From Candidatus Poribacteria bacterium (GTDB lineage: Bacteria > Poribacteria > DTPJ01 > WJIO01): 9,303 bases of DNA. Positions 1,565 to 8,284 of the stretch are shown here, one piece after another (position 1 is the stretch's first letter; the number at the start of each line of letters is the position of its first letter). A program made the translations under genes and the position numbers. The notes below the pieces were generated by a model. That model was not told the origin of the DNA and made no database searches. It saw only the letters and a list, made by a program, of their open reading frames with translations. The stretch lies in the NCBI GenBank assembly GCA_014730235.1, contig WJIO01000391.1, positions 1 through 9,303 of the forward strand, given 5' to 3'.

Positions 1565-3198
1565 AATTAGTTTTGGCTATACTTATTCTGCTTTTCCTGC
1601 CCTGTATATCTTTCTCTTCCTCCCTGGTCAATGTTCCTCTGGATCATTGGTCATATAATTTTATAGCAAGACTTCAGGCGAAGGGTTTACTTACTGAGTA
1701 TCTCAGGAGTTCTGTACCGTATTCTCGGGGTGAAATGGCTGATATGGCCTATTCTCTCTCAAATTTTTATAAGGATGGGAGAATTAAACTCAACCCTCTG
1801 GAATTGGAACTCTTGGAAGAAATGAAAAATGAATTTACCTTTGAATTAACCCGTAAATATCCGGAGTATTCTACTAAAGAGGGAAATAAACATATACTTG
1901 ATTGGGTTGATGAGGACAGGTATATTACCGCAAGTCTTGCTCTATCTCAACAGGCATCCCTTGTTGGTAATGACAAATCTTACCTAAGTAAGCTGGAAGT
2001 CCTGACCTATGGTAATATTTCGAACAATCTGTCTTTTTATAACCACAGCGAAGCATCATATGAAGCAATAAAGGAATTGCCTTTATGGAAGCTGGATGGT
2101 AATGATCCAAGATATAAACGCTATCCCTGGTCTGCTTTAAGTAACTCATATGTTGTTCTGGGGAATTCAAAAATAAATCTGTTGGTGGGAAAAGATGAAA
2201 TAAGATGGGGCCCTGGCTATCATGGGACTATTGGTTTATCTGGGGTAAATCCGGCTTTTGACAGCATAAAAATTCGGACTAAATTGTGGAAATTTAACTT
2301 TACAAGTCTTTTAGGGTTTCTTAGAGATGATCTTACCAAGAAATACAGGAGTGATTTACCCAGCAAATATCTTGCAGCCCATCGTGTGGATATAATGATC
2401 CATCCAGGTATTACATTGGCGTGGCAAGAAGCATATATATTTACCGAAAAGCTGCATATAGAACTTGTGAATCCCTTTATGCCATATCAGATGGCAGAAG
2501 ATTACCTGGGAGAAATAGGCAATAACACCATGGAGGGGGATATTGAAATAACCCTCATACCCAATGTTGAGCTATACGCATCTCTGTTTCTGGATGATTT
2601 TCATACGGATAAGAACCCATTTAAATATACCGGTTTCGGTTGGGCGGGATTGGCTGGTTTTTTCTGGACAGATCCATTTAGTCTTGATAATACCAACCTG
2701 ATTATGGAATACGCAAGGGTAGAGCCCTGGACATATACTCATAAAGGCACTCGTCAAGCTCCTCCCATTCCAACATCATACAAGCATTTTGATGTACCTT
2801 TAGGACACTGGATGGGACCAAATGCAGATGATCTTTATATCAATGCTGGTTGGTGGATAAATAAGAATTTATCGACAAATTTTATATACAATAGAATAAG
2901 ACGGGGAGAAGAAGGTAGTAATATAAATATTTCACCGCTATATTCAAGTTATTACGACGGAACGAAAAAGGAATTTCTCGGAGGAATTGTCGAGGAAACC
3001 AATTCTATCGGTTTAACCCTGGAATATAGAGTGTTTGAGAGATTTAATCTGAATTTAGGATATAAATATACAAAAATTAACAACAGACAAAAGGAAGAAG
3101 TAGATCTTCCGGAAAACGACAAAAATAAATTAGAGTGGAAGGAAGGTTGGAATACAAATGAGAATGAATTTTATTTATCACTTAGGTTTGTATACTAA
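1561..3198 (+). CDS. Wzi-family capsule-assembly-like outer-membrane protein
   Basis: A 545-residue secreted protein. A hydrophobic signal peptide (about 1-20) ends near SFSS. Cys15 follows Pro, so it is a poor lipobox and signal peptidase I is more likely. Residues 24-70 (VPLDHWSYNFIARLQAKGLL, then PYSRGEMADM) resemble the short SLH-like helical segment often found at the front of Wzi-type proteins. The core block VGKDEIRWGPGYHG (209-222), followed by LS and an NPAFD turn, matches the characteristic R/K-W-GPG region of the Caps_assemb_Wzi family. The rest is rich in alternating aromatic strands and ends EFYLSLRFVY, a C-terminal beta-signal expected for a barrel inserted by BAM. Wzi binds capsular polysaccharide at the outer membrane, and the two sugar-nucleotide genes upstream fit that. 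The start overlaps the previous stop (ATGA) with little Shine-Dalgarno, so coupling is likely. It could instead be a general barrel of unknown role. Confidence 0.82.
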   Translation: MKLVLAILILLFLPCISFSSSLVNVPLDHWSYNFIARLQAKGLLTEYLRSSVPYSRGEMADMAYSLSNFYKDGRIKLNPLELELLEEMKNEFTFELTRKYPEYSTKEGNKHILDWVDEDRYITASLALSQQASLVGNDKSYLSKLEVLTYGNISNNLSFYNHSEASYEAIKELPLWKLDGNDPRYKRYPWSALSNSYVVLGNSKINLLVGKDEIRWGPGYHGTIGLSGVNPAFDSIKIRTKLWKFNFTSLLGFLRDDLTKKYRSDLPSKYLAAHRVDIMIHPGITLAWQEAYIFTEKLHIELVNPFMPYQMAEDYLGEIGNNTMEGDIEITLIPNVELYASLFLDDFHTDKNPFKYTGFGWAGLAGFFWTDPFSLDNTNLIMEYARVEPWTYTHKGTRQAPPIPTSYKHFDVPLGHWMGPNADDLYINAGWWINKNLSTNFIYNRIRRGEEGSNINISPLYSSYYDGTKKEFLGGIVEETNSIGLTLEYRVFERFNLNLGYKYTKINNRQKEEVDLPENDKNKLEWKEGWNTNENEFYLSLRFVY

Positions 3199-3841
3199 AA
3201 GTGCAAATACTTGATATTCTACAATCCGAACATAAAGGTTTCTTTTTACAGAAATTTTTGCAATGCACAACAATAAGAGCATGGTATTCGTTATATATAT
3301 TTACATCTGAAGGTATTTCCCACATAAAGAAATTTTGTATTTCTTTATAACTAACCTCTCCCATCCAACTATAACCCAACCTGTTGAATAATCTCCTGGT
3401 ATAAGCATCTACCACAAAAATTAGACGGTTAAAAGCATACAGTAAAATACTGTCAGCCGTCTCTGGCCCAATCCCGTTGATTTCCAGAAGTTCCCCCCTC
3501 AACCGAGTCAAAGGTAATACACTGAATCTATTCATATTTGATTCATGTAGTTTAAAATATTCCAGCAGGTTTATTAACCTTTTGTATTTTACATTAAAGA
3601 AACCGACAGGTTTGATTAATAATTTTACATAATCGGGCTTTGCATTCAATAACTTTAATAAATCCAAAAGCTCTGACTTTTTTAGATTATCAATAGCTCT
3701 GGCAACATTAGTCCAGGATGTATTTTGTGTAAGAACCGCACCCAGGGATATCTCAAGCCATCCATCACCGGGCCACCAGTTCTGACTGCCGTATATTTCA
3801 TATAGAGCTTTATAAATGGATAACACTGAAGGAAGTTTCAT
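3182..3841 (-). CDS. Endonuclease III-family DNA glycosylase, MagIII-like (HhH-GPD, 4Fe-4S)
   Basis: A 219-residue base-excision-repair glycosylase. The NWWPGDGWLEISLGAVLTQN block (21-40) is the N-terminal signature of MagIII/EndoIII-like enzymes. The helix-hairpin-helix is at 119-135 (LEINGIGPETAD) and the catalytic Asp is Asp145 in VVDAYTRR. Cys198, 204, 207 and 213 give C-x5-C-x2-C-x5-C, a standard [4Fe-4S] arrangement in this superfamily. The HhH position that carries Lys in bifunctional EndoIII is Glu127 here, so a monofunctional glycosylase without AP-lyase activity, such as a 3-methyladenine type, is more likely. It is the last gene of the minus-strand run, 19 bp after the dehydrogenase. 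No clear Shine-Dalgarno precedes the ATG, but no alternative start looks better. Its 3' end overlaps the convergent wzi-like gene by 17 bp. Substrate range is inferred. Confidence 0.87.
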   Translation of the reverse strand: MKLPSVLSIYKALYEIYGSQNWWPGDGWLEISLGAVLTQNTSWTNVARAIDNLKKSELLDLLKLLNAKPDYVKLLIKPVGFFNVKYKRLINLLEYFKLHESNMNRFSVLPLTRLRGELLEINGIGPETADSILLYAFNRLIFVVDAYTRRLFNRLGYSWMGEVSYKEIQNFFMWEIPSDVNIYNEYHALIVVHCKNFCKKKPLCSDCRISSICTFSIQT

Positions 3842-4871: not shown

Positions 4872-5726
4872 TTATTCCCGAAAGAAATGCACATCTCTTT
4901 GAGGGAAAGGAATAGTAACATCATGATCCCTGAAAGCCTTATCAATGGCATAATTTAAGTCGCTGGTGATAGGCAACTTTCTTCGGGGACTGATAATCCA
5001 GGTCCTCAGGATGAAATTCAGGGAAGAATCACCAAATTCGCTAAACAATACATCAGGTTTAGGATTATCCAGCACCTCTGTATGTTTTTCAGCAACTTCA
5101 AGGAGTAATTTTGTTACCAATTCTGTATCTGAACCATAAGCAACTCCCACAGGTATTTTTATCCTGACTTTTGGATCACCAACTGACCAATTGGTTACAG
5201 TGTCCTCAATGAATTTGGAATTTGGCACTATAAGTGTAATATTATCGAGAGTTATAATGGTAGTAGATCTCATGTCTATAGATTCAACAACACCGCTTGT
5301 ATCTCCTACATCAATATAATCTCCTACACTTACAGGACGCTCAAAGAGAAGTATTATACCCGAAACAAAATTTGATGTGATATTCTGTAATCCAAAGGCA
5401 ATACCTACACCAACAAGACCGAATATTACCGTAAGACTGTTTAACTGTATACCTACAAGGTTGATCGCAAAAAGAAAGCCTATCACCATTAGAATATAAT
5501 GTATTATACGCTGTATAACAAATTGGGCACCATCGGCCATCTTAAAGCGAGGTAGTATGCGTTTTTTTAGTATCCTTCTGACTAACTTGGATATCAATAA
5601 AAAACCAAGCAGAACAAGAATTAACTCTATTATTATAGCAAGAGTTATAGGCTTTTCTCCTAATGGAAACAGCTTAATCTCAAATATTTCCCTGAATCTA
5701 GATATTAACTCTTTAAATCTTTCCAT
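4872..5726 (-). CDS. MscS-family mechanosensitive ion channel
   Basis: A 284-residue inner-membrane channel of minimal MscS size. Three transmembrane segments are visible: about 27-48, 75-93, and the pore helix at 97-128. The last has the Gly/Ala-rich pattern GLVGVGIAFGLQN followed by SNFVSGIILLFERPV, the MscS hallmark. A beta domain follows (VGDYIDVGDTSGVVESIDMRST, then VPNSKF), and the protein ends near IPFPQRDVHF, as in typical members. Such channels open under membrane tension and release solutes during hypo-osmotic shock. The ATG directly abuts the TAG of the nuclease gene, and AAAGGAAA (5732-5739) inside the end of that gene is the probable ribosome binding site, so translation is likely coupled. 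No functional link to the neighbouring repair genes is evident. Confidence 0.95.
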   Translation of the reverse strand: MERFKELISRFREIFEIKLFPLGEKPITLAIIIELILVLLGFLLISKLVRRILKKRILPRFKMADGAQFVIQRIIHYILMVIGFLFAINLVGIQLNSLTVIFGLVGVGIAFGLQNITSNFVSGIILLFERPVSVGDYIDVGDTSGVVESIDMRSTTIITLDNITLIVPNSKFIEDTVTNWSVGDPKVRIKIPVGVAYGSDTELVTKLLLEVAEKHTEVLDNPKPDVLFSEFGDSSLNFILRTWIISPRRKLPITSDLNYAIDKAFRDHDVTIPFPQRDVHFFRE

Positions 5727-6818
5727 CTAACTTTCCTTTTGATTAATCAATTCTAATCGCTTTTTGCGTATTTGTTTTAAGACCCGGATAACGCGATTTT
5801 TGTCAATAATACAAACCGAGACATCATTGGTATCAGGTTTAAATTTACAATCTTCCACAGTTGCCAATATTCCCCGGATTGGTATTCCTCTTTCAAGAAA
5901 AGAATAAAGGATTTTTGATTTAGGTGCATTATCCAGATATCGCCGCAGTTGATTATAATGTTCTCTATTTAACTTCCCACGTTTGAGTTCCACAAGAATT
6001 AACTCTTCAGATTCAGGATCAAAGAATACCATATCAACTATATGCTTATCCTTTTCTTCTGTGAAAATATGATGCTGACGGTCGACTAATTCAACAGGTT
6101 GTTTAAACAACAGATCATAGGATTCCTCTATGGCATCTTCCAGGTTTTTCTCAGTATCAACAGCTTCATATTCCGCATTTAAAACATGGTGTATTTCAGA
6201 TGCCTTTTTCTTTCCTATACCTCTCATACAAAGAAGATCATCCTCATTAGCATTTATTATATCCCTGACATTTCCGAAATGCTGAAGTAAATCTCTGGCC
6301 ATTATCCTTCCACATCCAGGAAGCATTTCAATAATACGCCGCTGCATATCTGGTAAATCCGTAGCCTTTCGCTTTGGGACAAGGGATATTTCAGGTATAC
6401 CCACTTGCTCATGACGGGTCATCATTGTTATAAGGCTTATTGTATCCTCTAAATTTGCAGTAGATAGGACATTTATACCATACTGGATCATCATGGACGA
6501 AAGCGCACCTCGAACAGCCTGGGGATCAAACATGGTGTATTCATAATTTATCTCACCTTCTACTATCAATACAGGGATATGAAAATGCTCTCGAAGGTAG
6601 ATAGCACTGGTAAAGAGTGTTTTATCCATAATACCCCGCAGAAAGCCGCTGCCGGTTCTGCGTTCTATAGCCAATCTTTGACTGATAATATAGCGATCCA
6701 CATTCCCCTCATCTTCTTCAATGGGTACTATGTTTATACCAAGTTCTGCCAGTTTTTTAGCCGGTTTACCATCTGGTTTTGTGGTTGATATATTTAAAAC
6801 TGATAGATCTATGTCCAT
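5727..6818 (-). CDS. Composite nuclease: ERCC4/XPF-like domain, HhH pair, NucS-like PD-(D/E)XK domain
   Basis: A 363-residue DNA-processing protein with three parts. Residues 1-148 match an XPF/Hef-type ERCC4 nuclease fold: YIISQRLAIERRTG (43-56), then LFTSAIYLREHFHIPVLIVEG (68-88). The canonical VDxRE, GDY and ERKxxxD residues are altered: no RE pair, DRY in place of GDY, ERR in place of ERK, Gly58 near the last Asp. This domain may be weak or inactive. Residues 160-215 hold two helix-hairpin-helix units (LPGCGRIMARDLL and MRGIGKKKASEI) for DNA binding. Residues 240-350 resemble the C-terminal catalytic domain of NucS/EndoMS: Asp262, Glu277-Leu-Lys279 in VELKRG, Gln290 and Tyr294, then RGILAT. 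That site looks intact. The start overlaps the gltX stop (TAATG). The role is inferred as structure- or mismatch-specific DNA cleavage in repair; the target is unknown. Confidence 0.82.
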   Translation of the reverse strand: MDIDLSVLNISTTKPDGKPAKKLAELGINIVPIEEDEGNVDRYIISQRLAIERRTGSGFLRGIMDKTLFTSAIYLREHFHIPVLIVEGEINYEYTMFDPQAVRGALSSMMIQYGINVLSTANLEDTISLITMMTRHEQVGIPEISLVPKRKATDLPDMQRRIIEMLPGCGRIMARDLLQHFGNVRDIINANEDDLLCMRGIGKKKASEIHHVLNAEYEAVDTEKNLEDAIEESYDLLFKQPVELVDRQHHIFTEEKDKHIVDMVFFDPESEELILVELKRGKLNREHYNQLRRYLDNAPKSKILYSFLERGIPIRGILATVEDCKFKPDTNDVSVCIIDKNRVIRVLKQIRKKRLELINQKES

Positions 6819-8284
6819 TATTGTGCCTTTGCTATCTCTATAGCTTTATCAAGCCTCTCTATAACCCGTTCACGACCTACGAGATATATTGTTTCAAATA
6901 TCCCGGGCCCTACTGCCTTACCTGTAAGACTAACTCGCAGAGGATGTATTATCTTGCTTCCGCTCAAACCTGTTTCTTCTGAATAATACCTCACAAGCTT
7001 TTCCAGATTTTCCTCATTAAATGGATCAGCATTGCCCAGTATATCTTTAAGCTGTTCCAGCATTTCAGGAACGTAATCCTTTTTCAGTCGTTTATTTACT
7101 GCTTTTTCATCATATTCCAATTCGTCAACAAAGAAAGCTTCAGCATAGTCTACAATTTGAGCTAAAGTTTTAAGTCTATCACCAACGGCTTTTACAATTT
7201 CTTTTATCCATTCAAATTTCTCTGGTGGTATATCATCACCAACAAGACCGGCTTCCTGTAAAAATGGGATCACAGCTTTTGCGCGTTCATCCAGATCCAT
7301 TTTTGCTATATATTCACCGTTGAGCCATAAAAGTTTTTGCTGATCAAATACACTTCCGCTTTTACCAACTCTATCGATGGTGAAATTCTCTATAAGTTCA
7401 TCTATGGTGAATATCTCTTCCTGGTCATCCAGAGACCAGCCGAGTCTTACAAGGTAATTTATCATGGCTTCCGGGAGATAGCCCTGTTTACGGTATTCCT
7501 CAGCAGATGTAGCACCGTGACGCTTGCTGAGTTTTTCACCCTTACTGCCCAGGACAAGAGGAACATGGGCAAATTCAGGTAATGGACACTTCAGGGCTTC
7601 ATAAATTATTATCTGTTTTGGGGTGTTGGATAGATGCTCATCAGCCCTTATAATATGGCTTGTTTTCATGGTAATATCATCAACGGAGGAGGCGAAATTA
7701 TACATGGGCATGCCGTTCGGTCTTACAATTATAAAATCACCCAGCAAACCCGTTCTGAATTCAGTATCACCTTTTACAAGGTCATTGACTACAATGGTCT
7801 TACCATTAACTTTAAGTCGTATGGATGGTTTTCTGCCTTCTTCATGAAACTTTTTCTTATCATCAGGAGTAAGATTTCTGCATTTACCACTATATATAAA
7901 AGGTTTTTTCTGGGCTTTGGCCTGTTCTCTTTCAGCGTCCAGTTCCTCTTTTGTGCAATAGCAGTAATATGCGAATTCTGAATCCAAAAGCTTTTGTGTA
8001 TATTCTTTGTATATATCAAGTCTTTCTGATTGTTTGTAGGGCCCGTAATTACCACCGATCCCATAACCTTCGTCAAATTCTATACCTAACCATCTGAATG
8101 ATTCGATAATATTTTCAAGAGACTCTTCTGTAGACCGCTCCACATCAGTATCATCAACTCTCAAAATAAAAGTACCTTTATGGTGTTTTGCGAATAGCCA
8201 GTTAAACAATGCAGTCCGGGCCAGGCCCAGGTGCAGATAACCGGTTGGTGATGGGGCGATCCTTACTCTTACATCCGTTGGCAT
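6818..8284 (-). CDS. gltX: Glutamyl-tRNA synthetase
   Basis: A full-length 488-residue class I aminoacyl-tRNA synthetase that charges tRNA-Glu (and possibly tRNA-Gln) with glutamate in the cytoplasm. The HIGH-equivalent is PSPTGYLHLG (11-20) and the KMSKS-equivalent is KLSKRHG (251-257). Other family blocks are VDDTDVERS (43-51), IIRADEHLSNTPKQ (211-224), and the helical anticodon-binding region to the end, including a GKAVGPG turn. The zinc-knuckle region has Cys108, Cys110 and Cys135, but the position usually occupied by His two residues after the last Cys is Asn137, so zinc binding is doubtful. AGGAGA at 8291-8296 lies 6 bases before the ATG and fixes the start. It is the first gene of the five-gene minus-strand run, and a LamG-gene terminator sits just upstream. 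GluRS or a non-discriminating form cannot be told apart from this window. Confidence 0.97.
   Translation of the reverse strand: MPTDVRVRIAPSPTGYLHLGLARTALFNWLFAKHHKGTFILRVDDTDVERSTEESLENIIESFRWLGIEFDEGYGIGGNYGPYKQSERLDIYKEYTQKLLDSEFAYYCYCTKEELDAEREQAKAQKKPFIYSGKCRNLTPDDKKKFHEEGRKPSIRLKVNGKTIVVNDLVKGDTEFRTGLLGDFIIVRPNGMPMYNFASSVDDITMKTSHIIRADEHLSNTPKQIIIYEALKCPLPEFAHVPLVLGSKGEKLSKRHGATSAEEYRKQGYLPEAMINYLVRLGWSLDDQEEIFTIDELIENFTIDRVGKSGSVFDQQKLLWLNGEYIAKMDLDERAKAVIPFLQEAGLVGDDIPPEKFEWIKEIVKAVGDRLKTLAQIVDYAEAFFVDELEYDEKAVNKRLKKDYVPEMLEQLKDILGNADPFNEENLEKLVRYYSEETGLSGSKIIHPLRVSLTGKAVGPGIFETIYLVGRERVIERLDKAIEIAKAQ

Follow-up and report, generated by a model that had tools for sequence, protein, structure and literature searches.

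A conserved bacterial fusion of a predicted inactive ERCC4 domain, tandem helix-hairpin-helix motifs and a NucS-type nuclease domain

The window, i.e. the whole 9,303-nucleotide stretch of Candidatus Poribacteria DNA analyzed here, encodes a genuine three-domain protein of 363 residues, in which an ERCC4 domain of the XPF/Hef type is followed by tandem helix-hairpin-helix (HhH) motifs and a NucS/EndoMS-type PD-(D/E)XK domain. This combination of domains is real and conserved and, as far as our searches reached, undescribed: no account of an ERCC4-HhH-NucS architecture was found in the literature searched, in which subscription journals are thinly covered. The individual parts all come from known fold families, and the novelty lies in how they are combined and in the apparent shift of the active site. 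We favor, at a probability of about 0.6, a repair endonuclease of XPF/Hef-like layout in which the cutting role has shifted between domains, comprising a pseudo-XPF platform and a NucS-type cutter.

The open reading frame runs on the minus strand from 6818 to 5727, within a 5.5 Mb assembly estimated to be 92% complete. The original prediction had located the gene correctly at 5727-6818; a plus-strand reading of the same interval was rejected, its frame being full of stops. The gene abuts both of its neighbors:

6818..8284, minus strand: gltX-like glutamyl/glutaminyl-tRNA synthetase, whose TAA stop overlaps the nuclease ATG by one base (TAATG)
5727..6818, minus strand: pseudo-ERCC4/(HhH)2/NucS-type nuclease fusion gene, from the ORF call, Pfam, an AF2 model, structure matches and three orthologues
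4872..5726, minus strand: MscS-type mechanosensitive channel, whose ATG directly follows the nuclease stop (TAG-ATG)

The overlap with gltX and the immediate start of mscS make it probable that the fused gene lies in an operon with housekeeping genes. On the same strand, approximately 1.9 kb away (3182-3841), the window also carries an HhH-GPD DNA glycosylase, which has its closest match in 3-methyladenine DNA glycosylase (PRK13913 at E 3.8e-28, under the cut-off) and features a four-cysteine cluster at its C terminus.

Four orthologous fused proteins were identified, the window's own among them: two in Poribacteria and two in a second class, one of the latter in a Lentisphaerae metagenome-assembled genome. 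Two of the relatives are 71% and 61% identical to the window protein and the fourth member matches at E 1e-141; the finding of three orthologues indicates a conserved gene rather than an assembly artefact. In the phylogenetic tree the four fused proteins group together with full support (100/100), and a long stem leads to their clade, a topology that fits a single origin of the fusion followed by renewed constraint.

The domain boundaries, as placed by Pfam, structure comparison and alignment, are as follows:

6396..6803, minus strand: ERCC4 (XPF/Hef) nuclease-fold domain, residues 6-141, predicted inactive (PF02732; 1j22; lost catalytic residues)
6357..6395, minus strand: basic linker EISLVPKRKATDL, about residues 142-154, between the ERCC4 and HhH domains, conserved in the four orthologues
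6165..6356, minus strand: tandem helix-hairpin-helix, residues 155-218, with the hairpins PGCG and RGIG retained (PF12826; 1x2i)
5784..6164, minus strand: NucS/EndoMS-type PD-(D/E)XK domain, residues 219-345 (2vld, 5gke; alignment to 2vld at E 0.001)

Pfam detects ERCC4 (PF02732) at residues 22-133 with E 1.6e-14 and a score of 54.4 bits (cut-off 24), and HHH_2 (PF12826) at residues 167-214 with E 1.3e-6. The C-terminal domain matches two Pfam families under their cut-offs, YhcG_C (E 2.3e-6, 27.9 against 32.5 bits) and NucS_C (PF01939; E 0.005, 17.3 against 24 bits), and the better E-value of the former makes a sister relation to the YhcG (DUF1016) nucleases possible, judging by these profile scores. 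The same domain resembles the HSDR_N_2 and PADLOC PDC-S02 models, the PADLOC matches being limited to it. Among the NCBIfam models, the one for Hef gives E 8.8e-47 and the one for NucS E 2.1e-6, each under its whole-protein cut-off, and PRK04247 reaches 27 bits against a cut-off of 216.

The AF2 model, built from an alignment that included 17 phage ERCC4 proteins, has a mean pLDDT of 86 but a pTM of only 0.52, so that it is no guide to how the domains sit with respect to one another. Structure comparison matches residues 6-140 to the nuclease domain of Hef (1j22; Z 19.3, rmsd 1.9 over 131 residues), residues 151-221 to the Hef (HhH)2 (1x2i; Z 12.8, rmsd 1.8 over 68), and residues 222-341 to NucS (2vld; Z 13.9, rmsd 2.3 over 105), while 2bgw covers residues 6-216 in a single match. 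The linker EISLVPKRKATDL is modeled at low confidence, yet no other part of the protein is as conserved, 62% of its columns being invariant across the four orthologues. Pfam and the AF2 structure matches thus bear out all three domain calls of the original prediction (ERCC4, HhH and NucS-like PD-(D/E)XK), and the structure prediction it had proposed places the terminal domains in the ERCC4 (1j22) and NucS-type PD-(D/E)XK (2vld) folds.

The catalytic residues of the C-terminal domain were assigned by alignment to Pyrococcus abyssi NucS (2vld), of which D160, E174 and K176 are catalytic residues. All of the following are invariant in the four fused proteins:

6033..6035, minus strand: D262, aligned with NucS D160
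5982..5990, minus strand: E277-L-K279, aligned with NucS E174-L-K176
5937..5951, minus strand: Q290-x3-Y294, aligned with NucS Q187-x3-Y191

Inspection by eye of the four-orthologue alignment found no conserved C-terminal motif for sliding-clamp interaction. The possession of the same catalytic set, together with the match of this domain to the EndoMS-dsDNA complex (5gke; Z 13.6 on the AF2 model), is what speaks for a mismatch-directed endonuclease that would stand in for mismatch repair as an EndoMS/NucS substitute. We regard this as unlikely. The N-terminal domains of NucS, which dimerize and hold the flipped mismatched bases (Pubmed Central PMC8228993), are absent from the fused protein, whose residues 1-218 are instead ERCC4-HhH; moreover, MutS is present in all four genomes with the fused nuclease, and NucS and MutS hardly ever occur together (PMC8228993). 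The presence of MutS and the absence of the NucS N-terminal domains make a mismatch role less likely than a structure-directed one, so that of the "structure- or mismatch-directed" enzyme originally proposed the first half is preferred and the second is weakened. None of the four genomes contains a NucS_C match above cut-off; below it, the matches are the fused protein and two further proteins in one genome (G004). In a separate poribacterial family of about 330 residues (L016 1438-2433 and L019 1441-2427), a domain close to the N terminus also resembles NucS_C, at an E-value of 1.5e-4 to 2.5e-4 that is again under the cut-off, and an uncharacterized domain follows it.

The ERCC4 domain presents the opposite picture to the C-terminal domain, with catalytic residues replaced in three motifs in all four orthologues:

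6774..6782, minus strand: T-K-P, residues 13-15, at the position of the acidic D-x-R-E motif (alignment with ordinary members)
6690..6701, minus strand: V-D-R-Y, residues 40-43, at the GD motif (HMMER to 2bhn and 1j22; alignment)
6645..6665, minus strand: E-R-R-T-G-S-G, residues 52-58, in place of E-R-K-x3-D (alignments)

As a comparison set we used 30 ordinary ERCC4-HhH proteins, 13 from genomes of a second phylum and 17 from viral contigs. ERK-x3-D is present in every one of these bacterial and phage proteins, and GD in 28, the exceptions being one GE and one AD. All four fused proteins, by comparison, feature V-D-R-Y and an ERR without the x3-D aspartate (ERR-x3-[GSR] in the window protein, L022 and L023; ERRTATS in the fourth), and have lost the D-x-R-E motif. 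HMMER alignments to 2bhn and 1j22 place Arg42 on the Mg2+-binding aspartate of XPF/Hef. Lacking the catalytic GDXnERKX3D signature of the XPF/Hef family, the fused proteins are at most non-catalytic members of it. In ApXPF, Mg2+ is bound by the GD aspartate (Asp52) and the ERK glutamate, and no nuclease activity is detectable in FANCM, whose motif reads CDXnERRX3E (PMC3905867). Given the metal-binding role of these residues in XPF and the inactivity of FANCM with milder changes, the ERCC4 site of the fused protein is predicted to be catalytically dead. The domain may nevertheless hold an altered metal site, given that D36, D41, E52 and R53 are invariant in the four orthologues and that the three acidic residues among them lie close to the former site. 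Outside the 30 proteins counted, a group of phage ERCC4-like proteins (L055, L056 and L057, around 2885-3550) carries QRK for ERK and no clear GD, and is thus another possibly altered ERCC4 group.

These substitutions bear directly on whether the protein could be a structure-specific enzyme cutting with both of its active sites. The presence of both folds, the retention of E52 and R53 and the invariance of D36 and D41 would be compatible with such an enzyme, but the Mg2+-binding aspartate, the ERK lysine, the x3-D aspartate and the D-x-R-E acids are replaced in four of four orthologues, and FANCM is inactive with fewer changes (PMC3905867), which renders two cutting sites improbable. With the ERCC4 residues lost and the NucS set intact in all four orthologues, the protein probably contains one working nuclease rather than two. 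The claim of one polypeptide with both nuclease folds is therefore upheld for the folds, but two active nucleases are unlikely. Despite its lost residues the ERCC4 domain has diverged less than the nuclease domain (76, 71 and 59% identity between the window protein and its three orthologues, as against 67, 51 and 41%), which suggests that it probably has an essential, non-catalytic job. The window's genome contains no second ERCC4 protein and hence offers no obvious active partner.

The fusion is uncommon where we searched, as had been anticipated, occurring in 2 of 84 genomes of the window's own phylum and in 2 of 197 of the second class. A pattern scan of 84,980 species, using two patterns of seven to eight residues, returned two fused loci, a figure from which absence elsewhere does not follow, as the scan missed the orthologue in G480. 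No full-length relatives were found by tblastn in the phage and plasmid collections, nor did the fused-protein patterns match any viral sequence. Plain ERCC4-HhH proteins, conversely, were found on 155 plasmids (mostly of Pseudomonas) and 24 viral contigs, and in the second phylum 30 of the 387 genomes contain an ERCC4 match at 1e-8, nearly all in proteins of about 220 residues. The view that XPF/Hef proteins are known mainly from archaea and eukaryotes is thus outdated, plain ERCC4-HhH proteins being common on bacterial chromosomes, plasmids and phages. Direct descent from archaeal Hef was also considered and is unsupported, plain bacterial members scoring equally high against Hef.

The neighborhood of one orthologue points to a helicase partner. 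In G480 there is an overlap between the fused gene and the start of a gene for an MrfA/Hrq1-type helicase, whose domains are DEAD, HRQ1 winged-helix and MrfA zinc-binding. In G084 the gene ahead of the orthologous helicase (69% identical), and overlapping it likewise, is MrfB (RNase_H_2 at 4.3e-37 in Pfam):

L089, 4557-8554: overlapping genes for MrfB and the MrfA-type helicase in G084
L052, 540-4207: overlapping genes for the fused nuclease and the orthologous helicase in G480

In Bacillus subtilis, MrfA and MrfB act together in repairing mitomycin adducts, independently of UvrABC (PMC11194089). The fused nuclease thus probably partners an MrfA/Hrq1-type helicase in at least one lineage, although the overlap occurs in one of four neighborhoods and is a lead, not proof, of a helicase link; the remaining neighbors are gltX and mscS (window), a GNAT acetyltransferase (L022) and a DUF5591 protein (L023). 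The last, encoded directly upstream of the Lentisphaerae orthologue (L023 5029-5955, plus strand), is similar to a portion of archaeosine synthase alpha, with an E-value of 2.4e-13 that is under the cut-off. Homologues of MrfB are present elsewhere in all four genomes with the fused nuclease; MrfB has therefore not simply been replaced, and the strong form of that proposal was rejected.

That the protein is instead an anti-foreign-DNA nuclease (defensive or restriction-like), its HhH and ERCC4 parts finding branched or invading DNA, is quite improbable: the nuclease domain does resemble YhcG_C, HSDR_N_2 and PADLOC PDC-S02, and the helicase partner falls in the wider YprA family, which includes defense helicases (PMC12458937), but the PADLOC matches are confined to the nuclease domain, the neighbors are gltX and mscS with no recognized defense genes in the window, and no full-length relative occurs in the phage and plasmid collections.

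For the favored repair endonuclease with a pseudo-XPF platform, we propose the following mechanism. The ERCC4-(HhH)2 part, having lost its own metal site, would serve as a platform in the manner of FANCM, ERCC1 or Eme1, forming a dimer (presumably a homodimer) and binding branched or partly opened DNA, with a presumed preference for structure. The C-terminal NucS-type PD-(D/E)XK domain, with its full catalytic set, would make the cut, and in at least one lineage an MrfA/Hrq1-type helicase would open the DNA beside it. The likely pathway would be the repair of bulky adducts or stalled forks. A bolder extension, which we put forward only tentatively and consider rather less likely than not to hold, is that these components make up a bacterial counterpart of Hef/FANCM in separate parts, whereby the helicase opens the lesion or fork, the pseudo-XPF reads the junction, and the NucS-type domain incises. 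If true, a catalytic centre would have moved between domains within a structure-specific nuclease family.

In eukaryotes, inactive ERCC4 proteins are helpers of an active partner. The bacterial inactive ERCC4 described here seems to have gained an unrelated active site on the same chain, such that recognition and cutting are separable and can be tested domain by domain. Moreover, the MrfA-type repair helicases, whose only characterized partner in the literature consulted is the exonuclease MrfB, would gain a possible endonuclease partner.

Among known systems, the fused protein shares with Hef and archaeal XPF the order of ERCC4 followed by (HhH)2, and differs from both in lacking GDXnERKX3D and in its additional C-terminal NucS-type domain; unlike Hef, its 363 residues include no SF2 helicase. 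The plain ERCC4-HhH proteins of bacteria and phages, of about 220 residues, likewise pair ERCC4 with tandem HhH and score similarly against Hef, but their catalytic motifs are retained and no nuclease domain follows the HhH. With FANCM-FAAP24, ERCC1 and Eme1 the fused protein has in common a degenerate ERCC4 site with the fold and HhH kept, extending in FANCM to the same ERK to ERR change (PMC3905867), whereas those proteins form heterodimers without a NucS-type domain and the fused protein is bacterial, from a genome with a single ERCC4 gene. NucS/EndoMS has the same C-terminal catalytic fold and D-E-x-K-Q-Y set, but the fused protein possesses ERCC4-(HhH)2 in place of the N-terminal half beta-barrel and coexists with MutS in its genome. 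Finally, in relation to MrfAB (YprAB), the fused gene of G480 overlaps an MrfA-type helicase gene where G084 has MrfB; MrfB is a DEDDh exonuclease, whereas the fused protein is an ERCC4-HhH-PD-(D/E)XK protein in which Pfam detects no RNase_H_2.
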